From: Ehretia macrophylla
Taxonomy: Eukaryota; Streptophyta; Magnoliopsida; Boraginales; Ehretiaceae
Assembly: GCA_037974665.1 (NCBI GenBank)
Contig: CM075775.1
Span: 39,086,152-39,150,151 of the forward strand
Length of the DNA: 64,000 nt
Reading direction: 5' to 3'
The position numbers and the translations under genes are program-made. The notes beneath the pieces were generated by a model that worked only from the letters and a program-made list of their open reading frames with translations, was not told the origin of the DNA and did not search any database. Shown one piece after another: positions 18,386 to 58,230 of the stretch. Numbering within the stretch: position 1 is the stretch's first letter; each line of letters starts with the position of its first letter.

Positions 18386-18860
18386 TGTGAGGCCCGACTC
18401 CGAATAACGTGTGTTACCTCGATTTACGTGTCATAGACCAAGAATTATATGACTAACCTTGGATTACGTGGCCTGTCTTGGTTTTTGTGCATGCTTCATC
18501 ATTCGTGCCTTGACCTAGAATGGTGTGCCCTAATCCCCGACTAACGTGCGATACCTAGATATACGTACCCTGACCTCGATGTACGTGCATTACCTCATTT
18601 TGTATGCCCTAACCTTGAACTGCGTACCTTAACCTAGATATAGAGTTGTGCCTTGATTTGCGTGCATTGTATTGAATTACGTGCCTTGCATTGGTTTACG
18701 TGCATTCACCTAGGATTGTGTGCATTACTCTTGAAGTATGTGACTTAGTCTTGAAGTTTATGTCTTACCTCGTAGTTCGTGTCTGCCTCATGATTAGTGT
18801 CCCGAATTAATTTCTGTGCGTGTCTCGTAGTGCGTGTCATAGACATAGGAAAGCGTGCTT
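18386..18860 (+). repeat. Degenerate ACGTG-containing tandem motif in LTR start
   Basis: The first part of this LTR is a run of loosely repeated 20-25 bp phrases of the form ACGTGC-CTTACCTCGATTT, with ACGTG cores near 18440, 18470, 18545, 18590, 18680 and 18700 among others. The other LTRs have fewer copies (for example 50127-50340 on the plus strand and 6340-6559 or 57990-58190 on the minus strand). ACGTG is the core recognised by plant bZIP and bHLH factors; a promoter role is inference. Confidence 0.5.
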
Positions 18861-21800
18861 GCACGCTAATCGATAAAGAATCCTACACAAAGCACTAAAC
18901 TATAAAATAATCCTACAAACTCCACTAACTAATATTAAAATGCTAATTCAACCCACTAGAAGACGAAATTGCACAAAAAGCTAAACATTCTTATTCTTTA
19001 TTCTTTATTTTTTTTGCATATTCCAAGCACATGCAATAAAATAAGCTCAACCAAGACAAAAATTCAGAATTTTCCACTTTCTTGGCCGACCACATGGAGC
19101 ATTTGACAATGCTTTGCAATTTCAAAATTAAACTTAGACAACCTATGACACAAAGCATAAAAAAATGACTCAAAACCCTACCCAATGCACCAAAATCTCG
19201 ACACACTCAATTGCCCATGCTAAGGTAATTCAAATTATGCTCTTGAAGACACAAATTCTGAAATTTGCAAGCCTATAGCCGACACATGCATCAAAACTCT
19301 TCAAAGCTTTCATTTCTTTCTTACATTCTCTCTTTCTCTCATTCACTCTCTCATTTCTTCTCTCTCTCTCTCTCGGCCTTGGCTGCAATCTCACTCTCCA
19401 TGGCTTAAGCTCATCATCCTAAGATTCATCAAGACCTTCAAGCCACTAAGGAACTCGACCAAGCAAGCTAGAATGCAAAAAGACATACATGCAAGCTCAT
19501 AGAGCCTTCATTTCGGCATAGGTATGTTTGATAGCTTCTATTTCATTTTCTTTTGTTCTAACCACATGCACATACTAAGGATGTGGTAACTTAGCTAGGA
19601 ATTAAGAATCTCAAGTCATCTCTCGACCAAGCAAGGAGAAAAGTCGATCTTGTGCATCATCAAGAGCTTTGTGCATCTTCATTGTTGTCTTGCTAAGGTG
19701 AGGGCTAAAACTCTTTTGAAAAGCTTTCAAAAACCACATGCATGCCTTTAAATGTCTATTTTTACCTCTGTACTTGTGATTTATATGTGTACATGAGCTT
19801 TTGTAAACATGCATGGCAAGATATTTGGCTAGAATGTGAAGATAGGTGAAATCACGTAAATGGTAGTCTTCTGACTTGTTGGAGCGAAGTGAATTTGACC
19901 AGGTAAATGAGGTTGAAAATTTGTGAAAATTGGTAGGTGACTAGTTTTGCCGGTTTTGAGCATTTTTCATAGAAATAGGCCAAAGCTAATTTTGACTCTA
20001 AGGTCCCTAAAATGGCAAAACATCGAAAGGTGTCCAAATCTGGAGAATCTGGGAAAATGAAGCAGGTTTTGGCAGATTCACTGTCCTTGTAGAACGAACC
20101 AGTTTTGACTTAGTAAATGATATCCAAAATGCATGAAATTTGGTATGCTGCTATATTTTTCAGTTCTGAACATTTGTGTCAGAAATAGACTAAGGCTAAA
20201 TCTGACCCTAATTTCCCCAAAAATGACAAGTATTGAAATGTGTGCAAATCTGGACAGTTTTGCGTAGTCTCACGGTTTTGGCAATAACTATTGAATCCGA
20301 ACTCCAAATGATGCGAGGTTTGTTTCTGGATTTAGTTCACTCCTTAAGATTTAATTTGACATTTTGTTCACTGGAATTGGAGATTTTTTGCTTGTCTCAA
20401 TGATTGTGAGAATACAGACCATTGCAGTGAGGTTTTCATCTAGTGACATGCTTTGAAAATTATTGTGACTTCTCTTGTTGTATTAAATGCTTGGGATTGT
20501 GCACTTGGATGTTGTGTGGACTTTTTTGAATGCTTGAGGGTGTTTTAATTAATCGATGCATGGTTTGAGTTTAATTACATGACAACTTGGGGCTTAATCG
20601 CACGGGTGAGCATGAATTGAAACCCTAGTGACTAGGAAAACTCGCTAAGTATCGATCCTATGGTTATCGTGTCTATTTGTGTGATTAATGGGCTGCCCGT
20701 AGTTGTCTTTATAGCCCTAAATGTGATTCCGACAATTACATGTTGATAAGTAGACCTTTCTTGCACCCGGTCCCACGTAGATGTCGTTGCATGTTGTATA
20801 ACCTTGTTATTTGATTGCGTGAACCCCAAAATGAGTTATATGACTTGATTCACATGTGTTACATGGCTGTCCGTTTAATATTCATATAACTCCATGCGTT
20901 TTACAAGTGAAATTACATGTCAAACTTGCTTCGTGTATTTACTTGTCAACGTGCGATCTTGTAATTGCTCGGAGGCAACCTACTTTGTTGTCCTCCTAAT
21001 GTGATATGTTAAATGTTATAAATGTGCATTGCATACAAGGTTGCAACCTTTCGTTGCGGCATGGTAGCGTTTCACGCACGCCGGGTGGCATCGGGCTTGC
21101 CGGTGCTTCCGTGACTACCATGGTCCAATTCCCTCTCTCGCTTGGCATTCCATCCTCGGAGAGTTGGGTCGTAGATTTTTGGGGTACATCCGGAGTACAC
21201 CCAAATGGGAGCGATAAGTGGATTATTGAAGTCGGCCGCAACAATCGTATCGAAATCGATATTGAGAGCAAATGTTCACCGTATCCTTGAAATGATTAGT
21301 AATTGTATCTGTTGCTCAATTTGATTATTATACCTTGCGTACCTTATAGCTTGTAATACGTGACATGTTTTCAAAAGGGGTTTTTCATAAGTTAACCGAA
21401 AAAAGAGTTTCAAAACGTATTTCTCGTTCCCCCTCGCTGAGTTCATAAGGACTCGCCCTCTTTTATCATCTCAGGTGAAGAAGACTAGGAACAGGTACCC
21501 GAGGATAACTTGCCTATTGATGACTCTTTGGAGTGATTGTATGCCCTATGTGCCTTACGTGATTGTGGCTGTTTTGGTGAACGACATGTTGTTTTGAAGA
21601 TTATCTCTTATGTTGTTTATCGTTGCTATTGTAAATGACCCCCATTGTAATTTGGGGTCTAATTTTGATTTGTACTGATATTAACTAGACAGACACCCTA
21701 TTTGCTCATTTTGCTACTTTGATTGGTAACTACTGCAGGCTTATGAAGTACTAGATAAGAGTTAAGTAAAATAAATCTATCTAATCTTAAGTAGGTACTC

Positions 21801-22162
21801 ATTGGTAAGCTAAGATCAACAAGTACTTTTGTAACAGGGATTGACAAACAAACGAGACATAGTTACTATGCTAGGTTGTTAATCGAACGAGACTTTGAAA
21901 TAACTAGTAGGCATTTTAATTGGTGATAAATAGTAATCTTAGTTGAAATCGAATTCGAGATTGAAAGTTCTGAGGCGTTTAGGAAATTAAGTCAAACTAA
22001 GGAGCCAATTACAGCCATTATGCTGCCGGTTTTTTGGAGAATTTTGGAGTTCTAGGCTAACGTTAAGCGTTAAACCTTAATGAATGATTAAGTACGTGAA
22101 ATGATATGAATGTTTAGATCACACTCTAGTCTAACCTCTATAGGTCGGGTTGGTGCGTGACA
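18386..22162 (+). mobile_element. Solo LTR, plus strand (3.78 kb)
   Basis: A lone LTR in the opposite orientation, from TGTGAGGCCCGAC at 18386 to GGTGCGTGACA ending at 22162. It is flanked by a perfect 5-bp target-site duplication, TAACT (18381-18385 and 22163-22167), and the satellite unit continues in phase across it. At 3777 bp it is about 190-230 bp longer than the other full LTRs; the extra length lies in the ACGTG-rich start. It has the palindrome at 21037-21050 and a pyrimidine-rich tract near 19318-19376. Confidence 0.95.
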
Positions 22163-25100: not shown

Positions 25101-25665
25101 AACATTGAATTTTGGGCTCCAAAAATAGGCGATGCCAAGCAGGATTGCTGCTTCCGTCGTAGAGCTCTTGGAGAGCTTTCCAACGGCATACTGTGCGCCT
25201 CGTAATTCCTTACGGATCAAAAGTTATGGGCACTGGAGCGACGGAGACCTGGTCCTAAACCCCTTGCCCTCGGTTTGCGGGCCCAGCCTATATGTGAGGC
25301 GAAGTTGTCTTGCCCAAGGTGCCATGGGATTCGGTAATAGAAATGTGATGGATTAGGTAGTCGTCCTTTTCACGGTTCACAACGTACGATCTGAGACGAA
25401 AAAACACTGCAAAAGAAGAAAAGTATACCGAAACTGATGAAAACGTTTGATTTTAGACTCTGAAATAGGTTCAGCCATGTAGGCTTGCTGCCCTCGTTGT
25501 AGAGCTCTTGGAGAGCTTTCCAACGGTATGCTGTGCGCCGCGTAACTCCTTACGGATCAAAAGTTATGGGCACCGGAGCGACGGAGGCCTGGCCCCAAGC
25601 CCCACGGCCTCGGTTTGCAGGCCCAGCCTCCACATGAGGCGAAGTTGTCTTGCCCAAGGTGCCGT

Positions 25666-28600
25666 GGCAATCGGTAATAGAAATGTGATGGATTAAGTTG
25701 TCGTCCTATTCGCTGCTCACGACGTACGATTCGGGATGAAAAAACAATGCAAAAAAAAGAAAAGTGTCACAAAACTAATAAAAACGTTCAAACATTTGCT
25801 CTGAAAATAGGCACAGCTGAGCAGGCTAGCTACCCTCGTCGTAGAGCTCTCGGAGAGCTTTCCATCGGTATGTTTTGCGCCGCATAATTCCTTACGGATC
25901 AAAAGTTATGTGCACCGGAGCGACGGAGACCTGGTCCTAAGCCCCACACCCCCGGTTTACGGGCCCAGCCTCTACATGAGGTGAAGTTGTCTTGCCCAAG
26001 GTGCCGTGGGATTTGGTAATAGAAATGTTATGGATTAGGTTGTCGTCATTTTCGCGGCTCATGACATACGATCCGGGACGGAAAAACAGTGCAAAAGAAG
26101 AAAAGTGTCCCAAAACTGATGAAAACGTTCGATTTTAGGCTCTGAAATAGGCGCAGCTGAGCAGGTTTACTACCCCTGTCATAGAGCTCTCAGAGGAACT
26201 TTCCAACGGTATGCTTTGCACTGCGTAATTCCTTAAGGATCAAAAGTTAAGGGCACCAGGGCGACGGAGACCTGGTCCCAAACCCAACGCGCTCGGTTTG
26301 CGGGCCCAGCCTCTACGTGAGGCGAAGTTGTCTTGCCTATGGTGCCGTAGGATTCAGTAATAGAAATGTGATGGATTAGGTTGTCGTCCTTTTTGCGGCT
26401 CACGAAGTACGATCTGGGATGAAAAAACAGCGCAGAAGAAGAAAAGTATACCGAAACTAATGAAAACATTCAATTTTGGGCTCTGAAAATTGGCGAGCTC
26501 TCGGAGCCCCCATCGTAGAGCTCTCGGAGAGCTTTTTAATGGTATGCTGTGCGCCGCGTAACACCTTACAGATCAAAAGTTGTTGGCAACGGAGCGACGA
26601 AGATTTAGTCCCAAGTCCTACGGTCTCGGTTTACGGGCCCAGCCTCTACGTGATGCAAAGTTGTCTTGCCCAAGGTGCCGTGGCATTCAAAAATAGAAAT
26701 GTGATGAATTAGGTAGTCATTCTTTTCGCAGCTCACAACGTACGATTCGGGACGAAAAAACAACACAAGAGAAAAAAAAGTGTCCCAAAACTGATGAAAA
26801 CGTTCAATTTTGGGCTCAGAAAAAAGGCGCAGCCCAGCAGGCTTGCTGCCCCTATCGTAGAGCTCTCGGAGAACTGTCCTACGGAATGCTGTGCGCCGTG
26901 TAATTCCTTACGGATCAAAAGTTATGGCACCGGAGCGACGGAGACCTGGTCCCACACCCCAAGCCCTAGGTTTGCAGGCCTAGTCTCTACGTGAGGTGAA
27001 GTTGCCTTGCCCAAGGTGCCAAGTGATTCGATAATAGAAATGTGATGGATTAGGTTCTCGTCTTTTTCGTGGCTCACGACGTACGATCCAGGACGAAAAA
27101 ATAGCGAAAACGAAGAAAAGTGTACCAAAACTGATGAAAACATTCGATTTTTGACTTCGAAATAGGTGCTGCTAAGCAGGCTTGTTGCCCCCGTTGTAGA
27201 GCTCTCGGAGAGCTTTCCAACGGTATGCCGTGCACCGCGTAAGTCCTTACGGATCAAAAGTTATTTGCACCTGAGCGACAGAGGCTTGGTCCCTAGCCCT
27301 ATGGCCTCGGTTTACGGGCCCAGCCTTCACGTGAGGCGAAGTTGTCTTGCCCAAGGTGCCACGGTATTCGGTAATAGAAATGTGATGGATTAGGTTGTCG
27401 TCCTATTCGCGGCTCACGACGTACGATCCGTGACGAAAAAACAGCGTAGAAGAAGAAAAGTGTAACAAAATTGAAGAAAACATTCGATTTTGGGCTCCGA
27501 AAATAGGCGCAGATGAGCAGGCTTGCTGCCCCCATCGTAGAGCTCTCCGAGAGCTTTCCAACGGTATGCTGTGCGCCGCGTAACTCCTTGCGGATAAAAA
27601 GTTTTGGGCAACGGAGCGACGGAGACCTGGTCCGTAGCCCCACGGCCTCGATTTGTGGGCCCAGCCTCTACGTGAGGCGAAGTTGTCTTGCCTATGGTGC
27701 CGTGGCATTCTGTAATAGAAATGTGATGGATTAGGCAGTCGTCTTTTTTGCGGCTCACGATGTACGATCCGGGACGAAAAAATAGCACAAGAGAAGAAAA
27801 GTATCCCAAAACTGATTAAAACTTTCGATTTTGGACTCCAAAAATAGGTGCAGCCGAGCAGGATTGATGCCCTAGTCGTAGAGGTCTTGAAGAGCTTTCC
27901 AACGGTATGTTGTGCACCGTGTAATTCCTTACGGATCAAAAGTTATAGGCACCGAAGCGACAGAGACCTGGTCCCAAGCGCCTCACCCTCGGTTTGCGGG
28001 CCCAGCCTCTACAAGAGGCGAAGTTGTCTTACCTAAGGTGCCATGGGATTCGGTAATAGAAATGTGATGGATTAGGTTGTCGTCCTTTTCGCGGCTCACG
28101 AAGTACGATCCAGGACGGAAAAACAGCGCAAAAGAAGAAAAGTGTACCGAAACTGATGAAAATGTTCGATTTTGGACTCCTAAATAGGTGCAGCCGAGCA
28201 GGATTCCTGCCCCCGTCGTAGAGCTCTCGAAGGGCTTTCCAACGGTATGCTGTGCGCCACGTAACTCCTTACGGATCAAAAGTTATGGGCACCGGAGCGA
28301 CGGAGACCTGGTCCCAAGGGCCACGCCCTAGGTTTTGGGGCCCAGCCTCTACGTGAGGCGAAGTTGTCTTGCCTAAGGTGCCGCGGCATTCTGTAATAGA
28401 AATGTGATGGATTAGGTTGTCATCCTTTTCGCGGTTCCCGACGTACGATCTCGGACGAAAAAACAGAGCAGAAGAAGAAAAATGTCCTAAAACTGATAAA
28501 AACATTCAACTTTAGGGTCCGAAAATAGGCGCAGCCAAGCAGGTTTACTGCCCCAGTCGTAGAGCTCTCGGAGAGCTTTCCAACGGTATGCTGTGCGCCA

Positions 28601-31449
28601 CGTAACTCCTTACGGATCAATAGTTATGAGCACCAGAGCGACAGAGACCTTGTCCCAAGCCCCACGGCCTCGGTTTGCAGGCCCAGCCTCTATGTGAGGC
28701 GAGGTTGTCTTGCCCAAGGTGCCATGGGATTCGGTAATAGAAATGTGATGGATTAGGTTGTTGTCCTTTTTTAGGCTCACGACATACGATCTGGGACGTA
28801 AAGCAGCGCAGAAGAAGAAAAGTGTCCTGAAACTGATGAAAACGTTCAATTTTAGGGTCTAAAATCTAGTGCAACCAAGCAAGCTTGCTGCCACCGTCTT
28901 AGAGCTATCGGAGAGCTTTCCAACGGTATGGTGTGTGCCGCGTAACTCCTTACGGATCAAATGTTATAGGCACCAGAGCGACGGAGACCTGGTCCCAAGC
29001 CCTACGCCCTCGGTTTGCGGTCTCAGCCTTTATGTCAGGCGAAGTTGTCTTGCCCAAGGTGCCATGGGATTCGGTAATAGAAATGGGATGGATTAGGTTG
29101 TCGTCCTTTTCGCGGCACACGACGTACGATCCGGGACGGAAAAACAGCGCAAAAGAAGAAAAGTGTCCCGAAATTGATGAAAATGTTCGATTTTGGGGTC
29201 CAAAATCAAGCGCAGCTAAGCAAGCTTGCTGCCCCCGTCATAGAGCATCGGAGAGCTTTCCAACGGTATGGGGTGCACCACGTAACTCCTTACGGATCAA
29301 ACGTTATGGGCACCAGAGCGACGGAGACCTGATCCCAAGCCCCACGCCCTCGGTTTTGGGGCCTACCCTCTACGAGAGGCGAAGTTGTCTTGCACAAGGT
29401 GCCACGGCATTCGGTAATAGAAAAGTGATGGATTAGGTTGTCGTCCTTTTCGCGGCTCACGACGTACGATCCGGGATGAAAAAACAGTGCAGTAGAAGAA
29501 AAGTGTCTCGAAACAGATAAAAACCTTTACATTTTAGGCTCCAAAAATAGACACAGCAAAGCAGGCTTGCTGCCCCCGTAGTAGAGCTCCCGAAAAGCTT
29601 TCCAACGGTATGCTATGTTCTGCGTAACTCCTTGCGGATCAAAAGTTATGGGCACCATAGCGAAGGAGACTAGCTCCGAAGCCCCACAGCATCGGTTTGC
29701 GAGCCCAGCCTCTACGTGAAGCGAATTTGTCTTGCCCAAGGTGGCTTGGGATCCAGTAATAGAAATGTGATGGATTAGGTGGTCGTCCTTTTCGCGGCTC
29801 ACGACGTATGATCGGGGATAGAAAAATAGCGCAAAAAAAGAATAGTGTCCCGAAATTGATGAAAATGATCGATTTTAGGCTCCGAAACAAGCGCAGTCGA
29901 GCAGGCTTAGTACCCCCGCCGAAGAGTTCTCGGAGAGCTTTCCAACGGTATGTTGTCCCCATATAATTCCTTACAGACCAAAAGTTATGGGCACCGGAGC
30001 GACGGAGACCTGGTCCCAAGTCCCACGCCCTCGGTTTGCGGGCCCAACCTCTACGTGAGGTGAAGTTGTCTTGCCTAAGGTGCCGTGGGAGTCGGTAATA
30101 AAAATGTGATGAATTAAGTTGTCGTCCTTTTCACGATTCACGACGTACGATCCGGGATGGAAAAACAACGCAGAAAAAGAAAAGTTTCCCGAAACTGATG
30201 AAAACATTCGATTTTGGACTCCGAAAAGAGGCGCAGCCATGTAGGCTTGCTACCCCCGTCGTAGAGCTCTTGGAGAGCTTTCCAACGGTATGCTGTGCGC
30301 CGCGTAATTCCTTACGGATCAAAAGTTATGGGCACCAGTGCAACAGAGACTTGGTCCCAAGCCCCACGGCCTCGGTTTGCAGGCCCATCCTCTACGTGAG
30401 GCGAAGTTGTCTTGCAGAAGGTGCCATGGCATTCAGTAATAGAAATGTGATAGATTAGGTAGTCTTCCTTTTCGTGACTCACGACGTACGATGCAGGATA
30501 AAAAATTGCTCAAAAGAAGAAAAGCGTCCCAAAACGGATGAAATTGTTTGTTTTTGGGCTTCGAAAATAGGCGCAGCCGAGCAGTCTTGCTGCCCCCGTC
30601 GTAGAGCTCTCGGAGAGCTTTCCAACGGTATCATTTGCGCCGCGTAGTTCCTTACGGGTCAAAAGTTATGGGCACCGGAGCGATAGAGACTTGGTCCCAA
30701 CCCCACGCCCCCGGTTTGCTGGCCCAGCCTCTATGTGAGGCGAAGTTGTCTTGCCCAAGGTGCTGTGGGATTCGGTAATAAAAATGTGATGGATTTGGTT
30801 GTCGTCCTTTTCGCAGCTCACGACGTACGATCCGGGACGGAAAAACAGCGCAGAAGAAGAAAAGTGTCCCAAAACTGATGAAAATGTTCGATTTTGGGCT
30901 TCAAAAACATGTGTAGCCGAGCAGGCTTGCTATGCCTGTCATAGAGCTCTTGGAGAGCTTTCCAACGGTATGTTGTACGCCGCGTAACTCCTTACGAATC
31001 AAAAGTTATGGGCACCAGAGCGACAGAGACCTGGTCCCAAGCCCCACGGCCTCGGTTTGCAGGCCCAGCCTCTACGTGAGGCGAGGTTGTCTTGCCCAAG
31101 GTGTCATGGCATTTGGTAATAGAAATGTGATGGATTAGGTAGTTGTCCTTTTCGCGGCTCACGACATACGATCCGAGATGAAAAAATAGCGCAGCAGAAG
31201 AAAAGTATCTCAAAACTGATGAAAACCTTTTCATTTTGGGCTCTGAAAATAGATGCAGCCAAGCAAGCTTGCTGCCCCCACTGTAGAGCTCTAGGAGAGC
31301 TTTCCAATGGTATGCTGTGTTCCACGTAACTCCTTGCGGATCAAAAGTTATAGGCTCCGGAGCAAAGGAAACCAGGTCCCAAGCCCCACGACCTCGGTTT
31401 GCGGGCCCAGCTTTCACGTGAGGCAAAGTTGTCTTGCCCAAGGTGCCAT
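25666..31449. repeat. Higher-order satellite repeat, copy A (17 units, 5.78 kb)
   Basis: A segment of 17 units that recurs from 31450. Shared diagnostic variants in order, with offsets near 5782 bp, are GGCAATCGG (25666 and 31450), CCTATTCGCTGCTC, ACACCCCCGG, ATGTTATGG, GAGGAACTTTCC with CCTTAAGGATC, the rearranged unit at 26495 and 32277, AAAAGTTGTTGGCAACGG, AAGTGATTCGATAATAG, and GGATAAAAAG with GTCCGTAGCCCC. From about 28.4 kb onward the offset becomes about 6462 bp, because the second copy holds two additional units. Confidence 0.85.
26495..26506. repeat. Displaced dyad box in rearranged unit, copy 1
   Basis: GAGCTCTCGGAG, which normally occurs once per unit, is copied some 20 bp early here and replaces the GCAGCCGAGCAGGCTTGC segment; the normal dyad follows at its usual place. 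The same rearrangement is at 32277-32288, exactly 5782 bp away. Confidence 0.85.
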
Positions 31450-34400
31450 GGCAATCGGTAATAGAAATGTGATGGATTAAGTTGTCATCCTATTCGCTGC
31501 TCACGACGTACAATCCGGGGTGAAAAAATAATACAAAAGAAGAAAAGTGTAACAAAACTGATAAAAATGTTCGAATATTTTCTCTGAAAATAGGCGCAGG
31601 CAAGCAGGCTTGCTACCCTCGTCGTAGAGCTCTCGGAGAGCTTTCTATCGGTATGCTTTGCGCCGCGTAATTCCTTACGGATCAAAATTTATGGGCACCG
31701 GAGCGACGGAGACCTGGTCCCAAGCCCTACACCCCCGGTTTGCGGGCCCAGCCTCTACATGAGGTGAATTTGTCTTGCCCAAGGTGCTTGGGATTCAGTA
31801 ATAGAAATGTTATGGATTAGGTTGTCGTCATTTTCGCGGCTCACGACGTACGATCAGGGATGAAAAAACAGTGCAAAAGAAGAAAAGTGTCCCAAAACTG
31901 ATGAAAATATTCGATTTTAGGCTCTGAAATAGGTGCAACCGAGCAGGATTGCTGCCCCAGTCATAGAGCTTTCGGAGGAACTTTCCAACGGTATGCTTTG
32001 CGCCGCATAATTCCTTAAGGATCAAAAGTTAAAGGCACCAGAGCGACAGAGACCTGGTCCCAAACCCAACACCCTCGGTTAGCGGGCCCAGCCTCTACGT
32101 GTGGTGAAGTTGTCTTGCCCATGGTGCCGTAGGATTCGGTAATAGAAATGTGATGGATTAGGTTGTCGTCCTTTTCGCAGCTCACGACGTACGACCCGGG
32201 ATAGAAAAACAGCGCAAAAGAAAAAAAGTATACCGAAACTGATGAAAACATTCAATTTTGGGCTCTGAAAATCGGCGAGCTCTCGGAGCCCCCATCATAG
32301 AGCTCTCGGAGAGCTTTCCAACGTATGCTGTGCGCCGCGTAACTCTTTACGGATCAAAAGTTGTTGGCAACGGAGCGACGGAGATGTGGTCCCAAGCCCT
32401 ACGGCCTCGGTTTGTGGGCCCAGCCTCTACGTGAGGCAAAGATGTCTTGCCCAAGGTGCAGTGGCATTCAGAAATAAAAATGTGATGGATTAGGTAGTCA
32501 TCCTTTTTGCGGCTCACAACGTACGATTCGGGACGAAAAAATAGCATAAGAGAAAAAAGTGTCCTAAAACTAATGAAAACGTTCAATTTTGGGCTCCAAA
32601 AAAAGGCGCAGCAGAGCAGGCTTGCTGCCCCTGTCGTAGAGCTCTCGGAGAACTTTCCTACGGTATGATGTGTGCTGCGTAATTCCTTACGGATCAAAAG
32701 TTATGGGCACCGGAGCGACAGAGACCTGGTCCCAAGCCCCAAGCCCTCGGTTTGCAGGCCTAGCCTCTACGTGAGGCGAAGTTGTCTTGCCCAAGGTGCC
32801 AAGTGATTCGATAATAGAAATGTGATGGATTAGGTTCTCGTCCTTTTCGCGACTCACGACGTACGATCCGGGATGAAAAAACAGTGCAAAAGAAGAAAGG
32901 TGTCCCAAAACCGATGAAAACGTTAGATTTATTGCTCTGAAAATAGGCGTAGCCGAGCAGGATTGCTGCCCCCATCGTAGAGCTCTCAAAGAGCTTTCCA
33001 ATGGTATGCTTTGCGCTGCGTAATTCCTTGCGGATCAAAAGTTATAGGCACCGGAGCAACGGAGACCTGGTCCCAAGCCTTACACCCTCGGTTTGCGGGC
33101 CTAGCCTCTATGTGAGGTGAAGTTTTCTTGCCCAATGTGTCATGGGATTCGGAAATAGAAATGTGATGGATTAGGTTGTTGTCCTTTTCGCGGCTCACGA
33201 CGTACGATCCGTGACGGAAAAACAGCGCAGAAGAAGAAAAGTGTCCCAAAACTGAAGAAAACATTCGATTTTGGGCTCCAAAAACAAACGCAGATGAGCA
33301 GGCTTGCTACCCCTGTCGTAGAGCTCTCGGAGAACTTTCCAACAGTATGTTGTGCGCTGCGTAACTCCTTACGGATAAAAAGTTATGGGCAATGGAGCGA
33401 CGGAGACCTGGTCCGTAGCCCCACGGCCTCAATTTGCGGGCCCAACCTCCACGTGAGGCGAAGTTGTCTTGCCCAAGGTGCCGTGGCATTCGGTAATAGA
33501 AATGTGATGGATTAGGCAATCGTCCTTTTCGCGGCTCGTGATGTATGATCCGTGACGAAAAAATAGCACAAGAGAAGAAAAGTGTCCCAAAACTGATTAA
33601 AATGTTCTATTTTGGACTCCTAAAATAGGCACAGCCGAGCAGGATTCCTGCCCCAATCGTAGAGCTCTTGGAGTGCTTTCCAACGGTATGTAATGCGCCG
33701 CGTAGCTCTCTGCGGATCAAAAGTTATGGGCACCGGAGCGACAGAGGCTTGGTCCCAAGCCCCACGGCCTCGGTTTACGGGCCCAGCCTCCACGTGAGGC
33801 GAAGTTATCTTGCCTAAGGTGCCGTATGATTCGGTAATAAAAATGTGATGGATTAGGTTGTCGTCCTTTTCGCGGCTCACGACGTACGATCGAGGACGGA
33901 AAAACAGTGCAGAAGAAGAAAAGTGGCCCGAAACTGATGAAAACGTTCAATTTTTGGCTCCAAAAATATGCGTAGCCAAGCAGGCTTGCTGTCCCCATCG
34001 TAGAGCTCTTGGAGGACTTTTTAATGGTATGCTTTGCACCGCGTAACTCCTTACGGATCAAAAGTTATGGGCACCGGAGCGACGGAAACCTGGTCCCAAG
34101 CCCCACGCCATAGGTTTTGGGGCACAGCATCTACGTGAGGCGAAGTTGTCTTGCCCAAGGTACCACGGCATTCGGTAATAGAAATGTGATGGATTAGGCT
34201 GTCGTCCTTTTCGCAGCTCACGACGTACGATCCGGGACGAGAAAACAACGCAGTAGAAGAAAAGTATCCCGAAACTGATGAAAAACTTTACATTTTGGGC
34301 TCCGAAAAAAGGCGTAGCCAAGAAGGCTTGTTGCCCCCATCATAGAGCTCTCGGAGAGCTTTCCAACGTATGTTGTGCGCCGCGTAACTCCTTGCGGATC

Positions 34401-37400
34401 AAAAGTTATAGACACAGGAGCTAAGGAAATTTAGTCCCAAGCCCCAAGGCATCGGTTTGCAGACCCAGCCTCTACGCGAAGCGAAGTTTTCTTGCCCAAG
34501 GTGACTTGGGATCCGGTAATAGAAATGTGATGGATTAGGTTGTCATCCTTTTCTCGGCTCACGACGTACGATCTGGTATGGAAAAATAGCGCAAAAGAAG
34601 AATAGTGTCCCAAAACTGATGAAAACGTTCGATTTTTGGTTCAAAAAAAAGTGCAGTCGAGCAGGCTTGCTTCCCCCGTCGTAGAGCTCTCGAAGAGCTT
34701 TCCAACGGTATGTTGTGCACCGCATAATTCCTTACGGATCAAAAGTTATGGGCACTAGAGCAACGGAGGCCTGGTATCAACCCCTACGCCCTCGGTTTAC
34801 CGGCCCAGCCTCTACGTGAGGCGAAGTTGTCTTGCCCAAGGTACTGTGGGATTCGGTAATAGATATGTGATGGATTAGGTTGTCGTCCTTTTATCGGTTC
34901 CCGACGTACGATCTCGGACGGAAAAACATAGCTGAAGAAGAAAATTGTCCTAAAACTGATAAAAACATTCAACTTTGGGCTCCGAAAATAGGCGCAGCCA
35001 AGCAGGCTTGTTGCCCCTATCGTAGAACTCTAGGAGAGCTTTCCAACGGTATGCTGTGCGCCGCGTAACTCCTTATGGATCAAAAGTTATAAGCACCAAA
35101 GCGACGGAGACCTGGTCCCAAGTCCCACGGCCTCGATTTTCGGGCCCAGCCTCTATGTGAGGCGAGGTTGTCTTGCCCAAGGTGCCATGGGATTCGGTAA
35201 TAGAAATGTGATGGATTAGGTTGTCGTCCTTTTTGCAGCTCACGATGTACGATCCGGAACGTAAAAACAGCGCAGAAGAAGAAAAGTGTCATGAAATTGA
35301 TGAAAACGTTCGATTTTGGGGTCTAAAATCAAGCGCAGCCCAGCAAGCTTGCTGCCCCCGTCGTAGAGCTATTGGAGAGCTTTCCAATGGTATGGTGCGC
35401 GCCGCGTAACTCCTTACGGATCAAATGTTATAGGCATTAGAGCGGCGGAGACTTGGTCCCAAGCCCCACGCCCTCGGTTTGCGGTCTCAGCCGTTATGTG
35501 AGGCGAAGTTGTCTTGCCCAAGGTGCCATAGGATTCAGTAATAGAAACGTTATGGATTAGGTTGTTGTCCTTTTCGCGGCTCACGACGTACGATCCGGGA
35601 TGAAAAAACAGCACAGAAGAAGAAAAATGTCCCCAAACTGATGAAAACATTCGATTTTGGGGTCCGAAATCAAGCGCAGCTAAGCAAGCTTGCTACCTCC
35701 GTCATAGAGCTCTCAGAGAGCTTTCCAATGGTATGGTGTGCACCGCGTAACTCCTTACGGATCAAATGTTATGGGCACCAGAGCGATGGAGACCCTGTCC
35801 TAAGGCCCACGCCCTCGGTTTTGGGGCCTACCCTCTATGAGAGGCGAAGTTCTCTTGCACAAGGTGCCATGGCATTTGGTAATAGAAAAGTGATGGATTA
35901 GGTTGTCGTGCTTTTCGCGGCTCACGACATACGATCCGGGATGAAAAAACAGCTCAGTGGAAGAAAAGTGTCTCGAAACTGATAAAAAACTTTACATTTT
36001 AGGCTCCAAAAATAGGCGCAGCCAAGCAGGCTTGCTGCCCTCGTCGTAGAGCTCTCGGAGAGCTTTTCAACGGTATGCTGTATTCCGCGTAACTCCTTGC
36101 GAATCAAAAGTTATAGGCACCGGAGCGAAGGAGACCGGCTCCTAAACCCGACGGCCTCGGTTTGCGAGCCTAGCCTCTACGTGAAGCAAATTTGTCTTGC
36201 CCAAGGTGGCTTGGGATCCAGTAATAGAAATGTGATGGATTAGGTTGTCATCCTTTTCGTGGCTCACGACGTACGATCTAGGACGAAAAAATAGCGCAAA
36301 AGAAGAATAGTATTCCAAAACTGATAAAAACGATCGATTTTGGGCTCCGAAACAAGCGCAGTCGAGCATGCTTGCTACCCCCGTCGTAGAGCTCTCGGAG
36401 AGCTTTCCAACGGTATGTTGTCCCCGCGTAATTCCTTACGGATCAAAAGTTATGGGCACCGGAGTGACGGAGACCTGGTCCCATGCCCCACGCCCTCGGT
36501 TTGCGGGCCCAGCCTCTACGTGAGGTAAAGTTGTCTTGCCCAAGGTGCCATGGTATTCGGTAATAGAAATGTGATGGATTAGGTTGTCGTCCTTTTCACA
36601 ATTCACGACGTACTATCCGGGATGGAAAAACAAAGCAGAAAAAGAAAAGTTTCCCGAAACTAATGAAAACTTTCGATTTTGGACTCCGAAAATAGGCGCA
36701 ACCAAGCAGGCTTGCTGCCCCCGTCTTAGAGCTCTCGAAGAGCTTTCCAACGGTATGCTGTGCGCCACGTAACTCCTTACGGATTGAAAGTTATGGGCAC
36801 CAATACAACGGAGACTTGGTCCCAAGCCCCACGGCCTCGGTTTGCGGGCCCAGCCTCTACGTGTGGCAAAGTTCTCTTGCCGAAGGTGCAGTGGCATTCG
36901 GTAATAGAAATGTGATAGATTGGTAGTCTTCCTTTTCGCGGCTCACGATGTACGATCCAGGATGAAAAATTGGCAAAAGAAGAAAAATGTCCCGAGACGG
37001 ATGAAAATGTTTGATTTTGGGCTCCGAAAATAGGCGCAGCAGAGCAGTCTTATTGCCCCTATCGTAGAGGTCTCGGACAGCTTTCCAACGGTATCCTTTG
37101 CGCCGCGTAGTTCATTACGGGTCAAACGTTATGGGCACCGGAGCGATAGAGACCTGGTCCCAAGCCTCACGCCCTCGGTTTGCGGGCCCAGCCTCTATGT
37201 GAGGCGAAGTTGTCTAACCCAAGGTGTCGTGGGATTCGGTAATAGAAATGAGATGGATTAGGTAGTCATCCTTTTCGCGGCTCACGACGTACGATCCGGG
37301 ATGAAAAAACAGCGAAGAAGAAGAAAAGTGTCCTGAAATAGATGAAAACGTTCGATTTTGGGCTCCGAAAACAGGCGTAGCCGAGCAAGCTTGCTACACC

Positions 37401-37900
37401 TGTCATAGTGCTCTCGGAGAGCTTTCCAACGGTATGTTGTGATCTGTGTAACTCTTTACGGATCAAAAGTTATGGGCACCAGAGTGATAGAGACCTAGTC
37501 CCAAGCCCCACGGCCTCGGTTTGCAGGCCCAGCCTCTACGTGAGGCGAGGTTGTCTTGCCTAAGGTGCTATGACATTTGGTAATAGAAATGTGATGGATT
37601 AGGTAGTCATCCTTTTCGCGGCTCACGACGTACGATCCGGGATGAAAAAACAACGCAGTAAAAGAAAAGTGTCTCAAAACTGATGAAAACCTTTTCATTT
37701 TGGGCTTCGAAAATAGGCGTAGCCCAGGAAGCTTGCTGCCCCCATCGTAGAGCTCTCGGAGAGCTTTCCAATGGTATGCTGTGTTCCGCGTAACTCCTTG
37801 CGGATCAAAAGTTATAGGCACCGGAGCAAAGGAGACCAGGTCCCAAGCCCCACGGCCTCAGTTTGCGGGCCCAGCCTCTACGTGAAGAGAAGTTTTCTTG
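31450..37900. repeat. Higher-order satellite repeat, copy B (19 units, 6.46 kb)
   Basis: The second copy of the segment at 25666-31449. Markers up to about 34.12 kb lie 5782 bp from their partners in copy A. Markers from CGGTTCCCGACG (28434 and 34895) to GCTGTGTTCC with CCAGGTCCC (about 31.32 and 37.78 kb) lie 6462-6470 bp away. The added 680 bp is at about 34.15-34.83 kb and contains an ACTTTACATTTTGGG unit and a GGATCC unit of the five-unit repeat type. Confidence 0.85.
32277..32288. repeat. Displaced dyad box in rearranged unit, copy 2
   Basis: An identical rearrangement to the one at 26495-26506. Because such an event is unlikely to happen twice, the pair is a strong marker that the surrounding segment was duplicated. 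Confidence 0.85.
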
Positions 37901-50126: not shown

Positions 50127-50813
50127 TGTGAGGCCCGACCTCGATTTGCGTACGATACCTCGTTTTGTGTGCCCTAACCTAGATTTGCGTGCCTTGACCT
50201 AGGTTTAATAATTGTGTTTCATTTTCTGTGTCTTGCATTGAATTACATGCATTCATTTGGGATTGCGTGCATTTACTTGGGAAACGTGCATTCGTCTCGT
50301 AGTCTGTGCCTTACCTCGTAGTACGTGCCCTAAACCTAGGAAATCATGCCCTCACGCTAATCAAGAAAGCATCTTACACGAAGCACTAGATCATTAATTA
50401 ATCCTACAAATTCCACTAACTAATATTAAATTGCTAATTCAACCCACTAGAAGACAAAATCTCATAAAAAGCAAGACATTCTTTATTCTTTATTCTTTAT
50501 TCTTTGCATATCCCAAAAACACAATTAAAATATTGCTCAACCAAGACAAAAAATTCAGATTCTTGCAATGCCTTGGCCGACCACCTTGTGTGCATTTGTG
50601 CTTGCTTGCATAATTCAAAATTAAATCTAAACATTCTATGACACAAAGCAATAAAAAAATTAGCTCAAAACCCTCCTCAAAGCTCCAAATCTCGACACAA
50701 GCTCCTTGCCCATGCTAGACACTTCAAATGATGCTTCTTGAAGAGACAAAATCTGAATTTGCAAGGCTCTAGGCCGACATATGCATCAATCTCTTCAAGG
50801 CTTTTCATTTTTC

Positions 50814-50878
50814 TTTCATTCTTCTTCCTTTCTCTCATTTCTTCTCTCTCCCTTTCATTCTTCTCTCTCTCTCTCGGC
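50814..50878 (+). promoter_or_regulatory. CT-rich tract in LTR
   Basis: Pyrimidine-rich sequence with CTCTCTCTCTCTCGGCC at its end. The same tract is found in the other LTRs, as CT near 19318-19376 and as GA on the plus strand near 5829-5905, 14005-14045 and 57434-57500. Pyrimidine patches occur near plant core promoters, so this could lie close to the LTR start site; that is inference. Confidence 0.4.
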
Positions 50879-52474
50879 CTTGGCTGAGTTTCTACACTCC
50901 ATAGCTTAACTTCATCACTCAATGGTTCATTAAGACATGCAAGAAGCTTAGGATCTAGACCAAGCAAAACTAGGAGCAAAGAAGCACACATGCAAGCCTT
51001 TAGCACATCCATTTCGGTTTAGGTGAGTTTGTTAGCTTCCATTTCTTTTCTTCTTGTTCTAACCACATGCACCTACTAAGAACATGGTAACTTAGCTAGG
51101 AAATTATAGAAAATCAAGTGGTCTCTCGGCTAAGCAAGGAAAAGAGTCAATCTTGTGCATCCTCAAGAGTTCTTGCGTCTTCTTTGTTGTCTTGCTAAGG
51201 TGAGGGCTAAAACTTCTTGAAAATCTTTCAAAAAACCACATGCATGTCCTTAAATGTCTATCTTTACTTCTGTACTTGTGATTTATGTGTGTTCATGAGC
51301 TTTTGTAAACATGCATGGCAAGATATTTGGCTAGAATGTAATGATAGATGAAATCGGGTATGTGACAGCCTTCTGCCTTGTTGGTACGAGGTGATTTTGA
51401 CCAGGTAAATGATTTTAAAAATGTGTAAAAATTGGTAGGTAACTATTTTTTCCAGTTTTGAGCATTTTTTGCAGAAATATGCCAAAGCTAATTGTGACTC
51501 TAAAGTCCTCAAAATGGAAAATTATCAAAATGTGTCCAAATCTGGAAAGTCTGGAAAAATGAATCAGGTTTTGGCAGATTCACTGACCTTGTAGAACAAA
51601 CCAGTTTTGACTTAGTATAGGCTATCCAAAATGCATGAAATTTGGTGTGCAGCTATATTTTTTAGTTCGGGATATTTTTGTCAGAAATGGACTAAGGTTA
51701 AATCTGACCCTAAGGCCCTCAAACACGACAAGTATTGAAATGTGTGCAAATCTGGACAGTTTTGTGTAGTCTCACTGTTTTGGCTATAACTCTTGAACCC
51801 GAACTCCAAATGATGCGAGGTTTGTTTCTGAATTTAGTCCACTCCTTAAGCTTAATTTGACATCTTGTTCACTGGAATTGGAGTTTGTTTGCTTGTCTTA
51901 ATGATTGTGAGAAAACAGCTCATTGCAGTGAGGGTTTCACCTAGTGATATGCTTAGAAAAATTAATGTAGCTTCCCTTGTTGTATTAAATGCTTGGGATT
52001 GTGGCATTTGGATGTTGTGTGGACTGTTTTGAATGCTTGAGGGTGTTTGAATTAATCAATGAATGGCTTGAGCTTAATTGCGAGATGACTTGGGGCTTAA
52101 TCGCACGGGTAAGCACGAATTAAAACTCTAGTGACTAGGTAAATTCGCTAAGTGTTGATCCTACGAATATCATGTTTGATTATGTAATTAGTAGGCTGCC
52201 CGTAGTTTCCCTCATAGCCCTAAACATGATTTCGATGATTACATGTTGACAAGTAGGCCTTTCTTGCACCTGGTCCCACGTAGATGTCGTTGCATGTTGA
52301 ATAATCCTATTATTTGATTACGTGAACTTCGAAATGAGTTATATGACTTGATTTACATGCGTTACATGGCTTCCCGTTTAATATTCATATAACTCCATGT
52401 GCTTTTCAAGTGAAATTGCCTGTCATATCGTGCCTCGCTTGTTTACTTGTCAATGTGCAATCTTATGACTGTTC

Positions 52475-52500
52475 GGAGGCAACCTACTTTGTTGTCCTCC
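52475..52500 (+). promoter_or_regulatory. Conserved imperfect hairpin in LTR
   Basis: GGAGG-C-AAC and GTTG-T-CCTCC can pair around a short loop. The partner in the truncated element's LTR is at 4221-4246 on the opposite strand. It is adjacent to the conserved 14-bp palindrome. Its function is unknown. Confidence 0.45.
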
Positions 52501-53716
52501 AAATGTGATATATTAAATGTCATAAATGTACATTGCATACAAGGTTGCAACCTTTCATTCTGGCGTGGTAGCGTTCACGCACACCGGGCAGCATCGGGCT
52601 TGCCGGTGCAACTGTGACTACCATTGTCCAATTCCCTCTCTCGCTTGGGGGCTAGACTTCCTCGGAGAGTTGGGTCGTAGGATTTTGGGGTACATCCGGA
52701 GTACATCCATTTGGCGTGATAAGGGGATGAATTGAAGCCGGCCACAACAACTGATATTGGAATTGAACTGAGAGCAAAAGCTCACCGTATCCTTTTCACT
52801 ATGTGTATAAGTACTTTCACTTGGTTCCTAGAGGACCTCGGGGAGGAAAGACGGGTAATTGTGTTCCTTTACTTTTACATTACGTTATGTACTTACTTGT
52901 GATATATTCATGCTTGCAAAAAGGATTTTTCATAAGTTGAACCAGAAAATGAGTTTCAAAACTTATTTCTTATTCCCCCTCACTGAGTTCATAAGGACTC
53001 ACCCTCTTTTGTCATCTTAGGTGAAGAAGACCAAGAACAGGTACCCGAGGACGACGTGCCTAATGATAACTCCTTGGAATGATTGCTTGTCCTACGTGCC
53101 TTACTTGACTATGGCCATTTTTGTGAACGATATGTTGTTTGAAGACTGTTTCCTTTTATGTTTCTTGTTGTTGTAATGTAAAAGACCCCCATTGTAATTT
53201 GGGGTCTAATTTTGGCTTGTACTGATAATAACTAGATAGACACTACTATGGTCATTTTTGCCATCGTTATTGGCTAGTATCTATCATAGGATTATGAAGT
53301 ATCAGGTATGGACTAAGTAAAATGAACCTATCCAATCTTAAGCAGGTACTCATTGTTAAGCTAAGATCAACAGGTACTTTTGTAACGAGGACAAACAAAC
53401 AAACGAGACATAGTATCATGCTAGGTTGTTAATCAAACGAGACTTCAAGATAACTGGTAGACATTTCAATTGATGGTAAATAGTAATCTTAGTTGGAAAT
53501 GAAATTGAGATTGGAAAATTTGAGGCGTTTAGAGAATTAGGTCAAACTAAAGAGCCCAATTACAGTCGTTATGCTGCCGGTTTTCCAGAGAATTTGTGGA
53601 GTTTAGGCTAAAACGTTAAGTGTTAAAACCCTCTTGAATGATTAAGAACGTCATATGACTTGAATGTTTAGATCACACCCTAGTCTAAACTTCACAGGTC
53701 AGGTTGGGGCGTGACA

Positions 53717-53995
53717 CCTTATAGAAAGAATGGTATTAGAGCTTAGTTTGCTTAAGCCGGGTTTAACTCTCGGACCATAGGTAGAAGCCCTAAGATTATT
53801 AGGATGATTTGTCTATATGTTAGTGTGTGATAATGTTAATTGTGCCTTCTATGTTCTATGTGCTTATGTGATTAACTTGTCTTAACTGTTTCTAGAACTA
53901 TGTGTTTATGTAAAATTATATGTTGCATATCTTATGCATTAAATTATTGTCATGTTGTATTCCAATAAATTGTGCATCGTAATCTATGCCTATAG
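53717..53995 (+). other. Retrotransposon leader between LTR and gag
   Basis: An untranslated leader of about 280 bp with the primer-binding site near its start and A/T-rich sequence after it. Similar to 2729-3005 and 62743-63015. No other feature is seen. Confidence 0.8.
53731..53742 (+). other. Primer-binding site, initiator tRNA-Met
   Basis: TGGTATTAGAGC, one mismatch from the complement of the plant initiator tRNA-Met 3' end, 14 nt downstream of the LTR end. Confidence 0.85.
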
Positions 53996-54625
53996 ATGGC
54001 TGACCCTAGTACCCGCACTACTAATAGGAGCGATGAGCCCCAAGAGACCGGAGATGCCTATCAAACTAATCCCGGCATGGCTATGTTTAACATGATGGCG
54101 AATGCCATGGATCGCATGTCGCAAGTGATGGAACGTCAAGATGTACGTGAAGCAAACAACAACAACAACAACAGGAATGATGGTAACCATGGGAGACATA
54201 GCAGAATAAGGGAGTTCCTTGACTTTCGCCCGTCCAAATTTCACGGGGAAGCTGATGATGAAAAAACAGAGGCTTGGCTGTCTGAGATCGAGAGGATTTT
54301 TAAGCCACTTGATTATATTGATGAAGAAAAGGTGGAGTTTGCTGTGTTTCTGTTGCATGGGGATGCTGAGTATTGGTGGCACACTGTGGAGGCACTATGG
54401 GAAACTGATCATACCCCTCCTTGTGGGGTAATTTCGTTAAGGCATTCAAGGAGAAATATGTACCTGCAGTTTCCAGGCAAAGGCGGATTGAGGAATTCAT
54501 GCACTTGAACTAGGGTAACATGACGGCGGCCTAGTACAAGGCTCGTTTTGACCGACTGTCCCACTATGCTCAATACATGGTCAGTACTCCTGAGGCGAAG
54601 ATGTGGAAATTTACAACTGGATTGA
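53996..54625 (+). pseudogene. gag: Ty3/gypsy gag, N-terminal part, broken
   Basis: Starts at the ATG at 53996 (protein begins MADPST), matching the other two gag copies. The gag core is present, with FLDFRPSKF, EAWLSEIERIF and FAVFLLHGDAEYWW. A one-base deletion near 54420 shifts the frame just after WETDHTP. In the restored reading direction two TAG codons follow, at 54511-54513 and 54532-54534, where the copy at 2728 has CAG. The gene ends at 54625, where the nested element begins. It cannot make a normal gag. Confidence 0.88.
54621..54625. repeat. Probable target-site duplication ATTGA, left copy
   Basis: The five bases before the LTR end at 54626 come from the plus-strand gag (compare the uninterrupted gag of the minus element around 62105-62125). 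LTR retrotransposon integration gives a 5-bp duplication, so ATTGA should recur just after the younger element's 5' LTR, beyond the window. Confidence 0.6.
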
Positions 54626-57600
54626 TGTCACGCCCCGACTAGGCCTATAAAGGTTAGACTAGGGTGTGATCTAAACATTCAAGTCATGTCTCATACTTAG
54701 TTGTTCATGAAAGTTTAACGCTTAACGTTTAGCCTAGACTCTACAATTTTTTTGGAAAACCTATAGCATAACGGCTGTAATTGGGCTCTTTAGTTTGACC
54801 TAGTTCTCTAAACGCCTCAAATTTCATTTCCAACTAAGATTACTATTTACCATCAATTGAGACGCCTACTAGTTATCTCGATGTCTCGTTTGATTAATAA
54901 CCTAGCATGATACTATGTCTCGTTTGTTTGTTAATCCTCGTTACAAAAGTACATGTTGATCTTAGCTTAACAATGGGTACCTGCTTAAGATTGGATAGGT
55001 TCATTTTACTTAGTCCTTACCTGATACTTTATAATCCTATGATAGATACTAACCAGTAACGATAGCAAAATGACCATAGTAGTGTCTATCTAGTTATTAT
55101 CAGTACAAACCAAAATTCTTACAACGGGGGTCTTTTACATTACATTAAAAAGCAACATAAAAGAAATAGTCTTCAAACAACATATTGTTCACAAAATAGC
55201 CATAGTCACGTAAGGCACGTAGGGCAAGCATTCATTCCAAGGAGTCATCGTTAGGCACGTTGTCCTCGGGTACCTATTCTTGGTCTTCTTCACCTGAGAT
55301 GATAAAAGAGGGTGAGTTCTTATGAACTTAGCGAGAGGGAACGAGAAATAGGTTTTGAAACACATTTTCCGGTTCAACTTATGAAAACCCTTTTTGCAAG
55401 CATAAATATATCACAAGTAAGTACATAACATGATATAAAAGTAAAGGAACACAATTACCCGTCTTTCCTTCCCGAGGTCCTCTAGGAACCAAGCGAGAGT
55501 ACTTATACACATAGTGAAAAGGATACGGTGAGCTTTTGCTCTCAGTTCATGTCAGTATCAGTTGTTGCGACCGACTTCAAATCATCCCCTTATCACGCCA
55601 AATGGGTGTACTCCGGATGTACCCCGAAATCCTACGACCCAACTCTCCGAGGAAGTCTAGCCCCCAAGCGAGAGAGGGAATTGGACAATGGTAGTCACGG
55701 TTGCACCGGCAAGCCCGATGCCGCCCGGTGTGTGTGAACGCTACCACACCAGAATAAAAGGTTGCAACCTTGTATGCAATGCACATTTATGACATGTAAT
55801 ATATCACATTAGGAGGACAACAAAGTAGGTTGTCTCCGAGCAGTCATAAGATTGCACATTGGCAAGTAGACAAGCGAGTCACGATATGACACGCAATTTC
55901 ACTTAAAAGCACATGGAATTATATGAATATTAAACGGGCAGCCATGTAACGCATGTAAGTCAAGTCATGTAACTCATTTCAAAGTTCATGTAATCAAATA
56001 ATAAGATTATTCAACATTCAACGACATCTACGTGGGACCGGGTGCAAGAAAGGCCTACTTGTCAACATGTAATCATCAGAATCACATTTACGGCTCCAAG
56101 GGCAACTCCGGGCAGCCTACTAAACATATAATTAAATATGATATTCATAGGATCAACACTTTGTGAATTTACCTATTCACTAGGGTTTCAATTCGTGCTT
56201 ACCCGTGCGATTAAGCCCCAAGTCATCTCAAAATCAAACTCAAGCCACGCGTTGATTAGTTCATACACCCTCAAGTATTCAAAACAGTCCACACAACATC
56301 TCAATGCCACAATCCCAAGCATTTAATACAACGAGAGAAGCTACAATAATTTTTCTAAGTATATCACTAAGTGAAACCCTCACTGCAATGGACTATTTTC
56401 TCACAATAATTAAGACAAGCAAACAATATCCAACTCCAGTGAATAAGATGTCAAATTAAAGCTTAAGAAGTTAACTAAATTCAGAAACAAACCTCGCATC
56501 ATTTGGAGTTCGGGTTCAATAGTTATAGCCAAAACAGTTGGACTGCACAAAACTGTCCAGATTTGCACACATTTCAATACTTGTCATTTTTAGGACTTAG
56601 GGTCAGATTTAGCCTTAGTCCATTTCTGACAAAAATGTCCAGAACTGAAAAATATAGAAGCACACAAAATCTCATGCATTTTGGATGTCATTTACTTAAT
56701 CGAAACGGGTTCGTTCTATAAGATCAGTGAATCTGCCAAAACCTACTTCATTTTTCCAGACTTTCCAGATTTGGACACATTTAAATAATTTGCCATTTTG
56801 AGGACATTAGAGTCAAAATTAGCTTTGTCCTATTTCTGTGAAAAATGTTTAGAACTGGCAAAAATAGTTACCTACCAATTTTCACGCATTTTCAAGATCA
56901 TTTACCTAGCCAAAATCACATCGCACCAACAAGGCAGAAAACTGTCTCATACACGATTTCATCCAACATCACATTTTAGCCAAATATCTTGCCATGCATG
57001 TTTATAAAAGCTCATGAACACACATATATCTCAAGTACAGAAGTAAAGATAGACATTTAAGGGCATGCATGTGGGTTTTTGAAAGATTTTCAAGAAGTTT
57101 TATCCCTCACCTTAGCAAAACAACAAGAAGATGCACAAGACTCTTGGCGAAGCACAAAGTTGACATTTTTCCTTGCTTAGCCGAGACACCACTTGATTTT
57201 TCTCAAATTTCCTAGCTTAGTAACCAAGTTCTTAGTAGGTGCATGTGGTTAGAACAAGAAGAAAAGAAATGGAAGCTAGCAAACTCGCCTAAGCCGAAAT
57301 GGAGATTCAAAGAGCTTGCATATGTGTTTCTTGCAACCTAGCTTGCTTAGTCAAGCTCCCTAGCTTCTTGCATGCCTTGATAAACCATGGAGTGATGAAG
57401 ATAAGCTAAGGAGTGTAGAAACTCAGCCAAGGCTGAGAGAGAGAGAGAAGGATGAGAGGGAGAGAGAAGAATGATAGGAAATGAGAGAAATGAAAGAAAA
57501 ATAAAAGCTTTTGCAAGGTTTGAAGCATGTGTCGGCCTTGAGCTTTGCAATTTCAGATTTTTGTGTCTTCAAGGAGTATAATTTGAAGTGTTTAGCATGG

Positions 57601-58190
57601 GCAAGGAGCTTATGTCGAGATTGGTGGAGCTTGGTAGAGTTTTTGGGCTATTTTTTTATTGCTTTGTGTCATTAGTTGTCATAGAATTGTCTAGGTTCAA
57701 TTTGAATTATGCAAAGCAAGCACAAAGCACACAAGGTGGTCGGCCAAGGCATGAAAAATGCTGAATCTTTGTCATCTTTTGAGCATTACTTAATTTTGTG
57801 TTTGGAAAGTGCAAAAGAATAAGGAATAAAGAATAAGAATGTCTAGCTTTTGGTGCAATTTCGTCTTCTAGTGGGTTGAATTAGTAATTTAATATTAGTT
57901 AGTGGGATTTGTAAGATTAATTAATGACCTAGTACTTCGTGTAAGATGCTTTCTTGATTAGCTTGAGGGTACGTTTTCCTAGGTCTAAGGCACGCATTAC
58001 GAGGTAGGGTACGAACTACGAGACGAATGCATGTTTCCCAAGTAAATGCACGCAACCCTAAATGAATGCACGTAATTCAATGCATGGCACACAAAACAAA
58101 CACAATTCTTAAACCTAGGTGAAGGCACGCAAATCTAGGTTAGGGCACACAAAATGAGGTATCGCACACAAATCGAGGTCGGGCCTCACA
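54626..58190 (-). repeat. 3' LTR of nested element (3.57 kb)
   Basis: The plus strand reads TGTCACGCCCC at 54626 to GGTCGGGCCTCACA at 58190, which is the LTR read backwards. It has the palindrome at 55758-55771 and a GA-rich tract near 57434-57500. It lacks about 12 bp near 55116 that the other LTRs, including its own 5' LTR, retain. Confidence 0.93.
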
Positions 58191-58203
58191 TCCTCCCCTC
58201 CTT
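58191..58203 (-). other. Polypurine tract
   Basis: The minus strand reads AAGGAGGGGAGGA directly before the 3' LTR start TGTGAGG. This is the expected primer for plus-strand DNA synthesis. It is preceded by CGGGACGAAATTCTTTT, a sequence type common upstream of the 3' LTR in plant Ty3/gypsy elements. Confidence 0.88.
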
Positions 58204-58230
58204 AAAAGAATTTCGTCCCGAAATTCAATA

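Follow-up and report, generated by a model that had tools for sequence, protein, structure and literature searches.

Is the ordered recurrence of satellite units at this locus a higher-order repeat (HOR) of the human alpha-satellite kind, or a local event within one array? The window, i.e. the whole 64,000-nucleotide stretch of Ehretia macrophylla DNA analysed here (C12:39086152-39150151, on a contig of 69.8 Mb), contains four arrays of a 341-bp satellite, at 1-2129, 6560-11169, 14727-18385, and 22163-50126, which are kept apart by LTRs and pieces of one Ty3/gypsy family. The last of these arrays (plus strand, 84 units of about 341 bp) had been predicted to hold a multi-kilobase repeat of 17 to 19 units. 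We confirm that it contains a real two-copy block repeat, which we class as a decayed local block duplication, a kind of structure that is already known.

We added 100 kb to each side of the window, giving 264 kb, and compared these with a genome of 1,579,978,469 bases in 20 contigs. The satellite accounts for 155 kb of the 264 kb, with the long head-to-tail arrays typical of satellite DNA found across the region, and a genome search gave matches on at least 15 of the 20 contigs, an exact 30-base pattern being present in 39,194 places. An amount of 227 Mb derived from this 30-mer count was withdrawn because some of the listed places sit in a 5S rRNA gene array, which has its own 30-mer rate. 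The orientation is the same throughout the 264 kb except in two arrays (6.0 and 0.8 kb), and the mean identity of the arrays to the satellite consensus is 88-93%. After 12 of 488 pieces were dropped (<100 bp), the 476 units compared show a mean unit-to-unit identity of 0.830, with a standard deviation of 0.021 (111,683 pairs). Our literature searches found no report of this satellite, which is not proof that it is unpublished. Three units in different arrays of the window, at 7034, 9255, and 16052, are cut to about 182 bp, and their deletion edges are nearly alike (consensus positions of about 305 to about 122).

Extent and identity of the block

Base-level alignment and the identity edges place copy 1 at 25645..31418 (plus strand, 17 satellite units) and copy 2, which abuts it, at 31428..37882 (plus strand, 19 units). 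The offset between the copies is 5781-5784 up to about 28431 and 6463-6465 from about 28531 to about 31418, in agreement with the offsets of about 5782 and then 6462 given by the original prediction. In the first register, 2487 of 2782 aligned bases are identical (89.4%), and in the second 2699 of 2984 (90.5%). The edges are directly visible in bins of 170 columns: identity rises from 84.7% at 25475 to 91.1% at 25645 on the left, and falls from 90.6% at 31248 to 76.8% at 31418 on the right, with 83.4% at the same offsets just before the block and 81.9% just after it. By these edges, the predicted span of 25666-37900 was correct to within tens of bases. In control alignments shifted by one unit, the aligner returned to the original register by opening about 690 gap columns, which made them useless as controls.

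In the unit-by-unit comparison, identity is raised at 17 units apart for the units starting at 25477-27856, and at 19 units apart for those starting at 28196-30919. Units 27174 and 27856 are raised only slightly (0.856 and 0.859, z 1.7 each), and two half-unit stretches, at 27173 (80.6%) and 27853 (83.5%), are near background. Partner units average 0.894 identity, compared to 0.830 for unit pairs generally; there are 18 such pairs from the 17 units of copy 1, unit 28196 being paired both ways. The best run of eight units scores 15.7, against a maximum of 8.8 among 2000 shuffles of the unit order, and the best run of four units scores 13.8, against a shuffle maximum of 10.3. None of the 2000 shuffles reaches the observed run. 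The recurrence of 17 to 19 units in the same order is therefore borne out by two abutting copies, and the outcome on which the claim was to be dropped, units 17 apart being no likelier to resemble each other than random pairs, was not seen in this comparison.

The change of offset from 5782 to 6463 corresponds to a stretch of about two units in copy 2 that is absent from copy 1 (34214..34894, plus strand), with edges that are uncertain. The copies do differ by the two units that the original prediction described as added, but this word covers either a gain in copy 2 or a loss from copy 1. Units 33978 and 34320 are no nearer to their neighbours than to other units; their identities to units 48315 and 48657, 43 units further on, are 0.886 and 0.902, respectively, and unit 34320 reaches 0.922 with a unit at 128007.

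The two copies also share markers that we observe directly. Among the 84 units of the array, 15 variants each occur in a pair of partner units and nowhere else, compared to 0.49 on average and at most 3 for 37 control offsets. The prediction of at least ten private variants thus holds within the array but not beyond it: no shared variant remains strictly private once the other 474 units of the 264 kb are included. At this larger scale, 54 shared variants occur in at most nine other units, with control values of 2.6 on average and 6 at most for 28 offsets, and of 2.4 on average and 11 at most for 300 random draws of 18 pairs.

The most specific of these markers is a rearranged junction at the start of one unit, found in copy 1 at 26492..26514 and in copy 2 at 32274..32296 (both plus strand), where the unit start is replaced by an apparent short copy of a neighbouring motif. 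A search of the 1.58-Gb genome with this 23-base pattern, allowing up to two mismatches, gave three places. The only exact matches are those at 26492 and 32274, both on C12, and the third, on C13, has two mismatches. What had been called an identical rearranged unit is therefore identical over the 23 bases of the junction, but the two units as a whole are 90.9% identical. The exact junction is the strongest sign of a common origin of both copies, and the search with it is likewise the strongest sign against a third intact copy of the block in the genome. The whole 5784-base block gave long matches of 80-85% on other contigs among the best 20 of 60,890 candidates; this search is uninformative on further copies because the window itself is missing among those 20, and the junction search was used instead.

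Two rival explanations can be weighed against these data. Likeness by chance among many units has a practically negligible probability, given the shuffles, the shared private variants, and the shared junction. A false duplication made by the assembler would also place two similar blocks side by side, but copy 2 departs from copy 1 at about 10% of sites across 5.8 kb and is two units longer. Such differences are, in our judgement rather than by a test, above what haplotypes or read errors would be expected to produce, and we regard an artefact of this kind as extremely improbable.

Origin of the block and the question of higher-order repeats

The join unit between the two copies (31261..31601, plus strand) starts like unit 37725, and its remainder is like unit 25477. 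We observe in it a single switch, between 31377 and 31422, which fits 51 of 67 informative sites. A switch of this type would be the trace expected from an out-of-register homologous exchange within a monomer. As a sign of exchange it is not unique, an equally clean switch between the same parents being found in 2 of 473 other units. Unit 28196, at or near the change from 17 to 19 units, does not stand out (29 of 473).

We consider it very probable that the block is a single old tandem duplication by unequal exchange, one of many such events. A stretch of 17 or 19 units would have been duplicated once in tandem through out-of-register homologous copying, with a break inside a monomer at about 31377-31422. 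Possible routes are unequal crossing-over, between sister chromatids or homologues, and break-induced replication rejoined out of register, which are indistinguishable here; unequal exchange or break-induced replication has been proposed as the source of human HORs (PMC8997354). The copies would afterwards have diverged by about 10%, two units would have been gained in copy 2 or lost from copy 1, and some patches may have been overwritten later. Indeed, a simple duplication is not sufficient to account for the two half-unit stretches at background identity, which point to later conversion or replacement. We infer homologous exchange as the source of the block, as well as the order of these later changes. 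Assuming that base changes accumulate at the same pace in both, the duplication of the block, at 10% divergence, would predate the insertion of the retroelement at 54626, which has 95.2% identity between its two LTRs. No function is indicated for the block itself, which records array turnover. It is a well-bounded example of this turnover, in which blocks of various sizes are duplicated and slowly decay, and retroelements break up the array.

Two other sources of an ordered block have to be compared with a tandem duplication by unequal exchange. A circular satellite molecule carrying the block might have been re-inserted beside its source, which would also be expected to give an in-phase join, and extrachromosomal circles of plant satellites are reported (PMC2543021); but insertion exactly beside the source is required, nothing in this array calls for a circle, and we hold this route to be very unlikely. 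The block could also be a true HOR of the human alpha type, or what is left of a formerly longer array of the block. Several units do recur in the same order, and 57 kb downstream there are HORs with three copies at 95-96%. Nevertheless, there are only two copies, the register is lost on both sides, each pair of partner units shows 25-49 variants when gaps are counted, and no further exact match to the marker junction was found in the genome, all of which make this reading unlikely, although less so than a circle.

The comparison with published definitions leads in the same direction. Several distinct monomers recurring in the same order, as expected of any HOR, are found in the block. Near-identical copies are not found by our own variant count, as opposed to the HOR program TRASH itself, which by default requires at least 3 pairs in a run and a variant score no higher than 5 (PMC10199239). 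By a rule of thumb modelled on TRASH, one run in the 264 kb passes, made of four units of a nine-unit repeat. Human HOR copies are usually nearly identical, with monomers 50-70% alike (PMC8997354). Our block shares with human alpha-satellite HORs a multi-monomer unit, but where these have many near-identical tandem copies in one register, it has two copies at 90%, and its monomers are 83% alike on average. With the absence of a lasting register and with periods that vary locally, the predicted human-alpha-satellite-like organisation is not supported, and the locus serves as a warning that two ordered copies are not a human-style HOR.

The additional claim that such organisation is less often documented in plants is weak, as far as the extracts of the literature cited here go. 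HORs are described for Arabidopsis and poplar (PMC12046899) and for Brachypodium (PMC10910784), and a paper on hop calls them common in most plants, hop itself being without them (PMC12371157), as is pepper (PMC11106260), in the passages concerned. The block resembles the HORs of Arabidopsis CEN178, poplar Palv156, and Brachypodium CentBd/CentBs, which in these same excerpts are ordered multi-monomer blocks of many lengths in the arrays of one satellite (PMC12046899, PMC10199239, PMC10910784). It differs from them in being one pair of copies at 10% divergence. In poplar, HORs occur also in arrays without a CENH3 peak, in the part of that study used here (PMC12046899), and the present block is similar in being HOR-like outside a proven centromere; the satellite is a different one, and here only the sequence was read.

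The block is not the only ordered repeat of the region. A scan of the 264 kb gave 27 same-order runs of at least three units; in 200 trials with shuffled order the average was 0.5, and no trial gave more than 3. Only this count is clearly in excess, since shuffled orders already give 9.4 runs of any length on average at the same score (maximum 11), and the 27 runs partly overlap, so that they represent fewer than 27 events. Their offsets are 2 to 10, 14, 15, 17, 18, 19, 28, 39, 43, and 45 units. A nine-unit repeat in three copies, at window +95106 to +104610, reaches 0.953 at offset 9 and 0.963 at offset 18, and is adjoined by a three-unit repeat in three copies at +104628 to +108035 (0.957); these two are HORs younger than the 17/19 block. 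Several units of the nine-unit repeat are identical between copies. Also in window coordinates, there are a five-unit run on the opposite strand at -81090 (0.946), six-unit runs at -96545 (0.951) and 138054 (0.893), a four-unit run at -1457 (0.923), and an eight-unit run at -97226 (0.895). By our reading of the scan, the 17/19 block has the longest period among abutting runs in the 264 kb, and it is among the older ones.

At greater distance, 13 units at 36024-40441 recur in order at window +88446 to +92717 (0.876). Of the 38 kb between these copies, 27.4 kb are assigned to a nested retroelement, which leaves 10.5 kb, and the 13-unit duplication is probably older than the nested insertions it spans. 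Nine satellite loci from elsewhere in the genome were compared in addition. One on C9 (L029) has a 13-unit repeat with eight pairs at 0.914-0.965, five (L006, L007, L008, L030, and L031) have one to four pairs each at 0.91 or above, L032 reaches 0.918 at most over offsets 1-12, and no pairs at 0.91 or above were found in L004 and L005.

A satellite monomer in the 5S rRNA gene spacer

The 100 places listed among the 39,194 with the 30-mer all fall close to the beginning of C1; the spacing is a multiple of about 677 for many of them and of about 341 for others. In this part of C1 (L033, C1:1217001-1225000), we find 12 5S rRNA genes with a satellite monomer in the intervening spacer. The same 677-bp design is found in six 5S genes at C12:69130001-69134000 (L034), 0.7 Mb from the end of C12, and in four at 30.04 Mb of C4 (L035, C4:30038001-30041000). 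At these three places, on three contigs, the spacer of the 677-bp 5S repeat carries a complete, circularly permuted satellite monomer, opened at satellite positions 215/219 in L033 and at 217/219 in L034 and L035. In total, there are 22 5S genes and 20 complete monomers, other monomers being cut by the ends of the stretches. The 11 spacer monomers of L033 give a majority sequence with 92.6% identity to the satellite consensus across 336 columns. The three places were chosen for holding the 30-mer or a 5S match, and other 5S places may differ. A search for the 5S family scored 47 of 274,483 first-look candidates, which are not a gene count, and all 47 were over the cut-off; they are on at least 11 contigs, several near contig ends.

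In a tree without outgroup that also holds 415 satellite units, all 20 spacer monomers group in a single clade (support 0.998), which suggests one event. We tentatively propose, with somewhat less than even confidence, that the satellite and the spacer of an amplified 5S rRNA gene repeat have one sequence in common, a whole monomer being part of the 677-bp 5S unit of three or more contigs, and that the dispersed satellite, with its local block duplications, budded from the spacer. The reverse direction, a single entry of one satellite monomer into the 5S unit followed by its spread together with that unit, has about the same likelihood. Plant satellites often derive from parts such as 5S rDNA according to PMC4273535, which cites work on a frog. 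In the 264 kb, the hits of a blastn search for a 5S remnant were no better than chance (best E 0.73, over 19 bases), and Rfam at gathering scores gave no match in the window. This satellite was not found in the literature searched, which included PMC4273535 and PMC8312256. A monomer common to the satellite and the 5S spacer would make it possible to ask about their order of origin, and whether the dispersed satellite is supplied by 5S arrays.

Retroelements around the array

Upstream, the array that holds the block is bordered by a solitary Ty3/gypsy LTR inserted in satellite (18386..22162, plus strand), identified by its match to other LTRs and flanked by TAACT on both sides. Downstream, it is ended by nested Ty3/gypsy elements (50127..64000), a nest that continues past the window to 77531. 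One plus-strand element of this nest is split at 54625/71097 by a minus-strand insert, which has three LTRs in a row, at 54626-58190, 63016-66591, and 67534-71096. One Ty3/gypsy copy has four open stretches with matches to reverse transcriptase, protease, RNase H, gag, and a Tf2-type SH3 domain; its match to an integrase core is under the curated cut-off. The idea that the satellite was derived from the Ty3/gypsy LTR was not adopted, a comparison of the two giving an 11-base match only.

A further element, at 2130-6559, consists of an LTR and about 0.88 kb of adjoining internal sequence, the second LTR being absent. It has GTCTTG on both sides, and the satellite is in phase across it. Its inner end falls no more than 41 bases from the corresponding points, 54625 and 66616.
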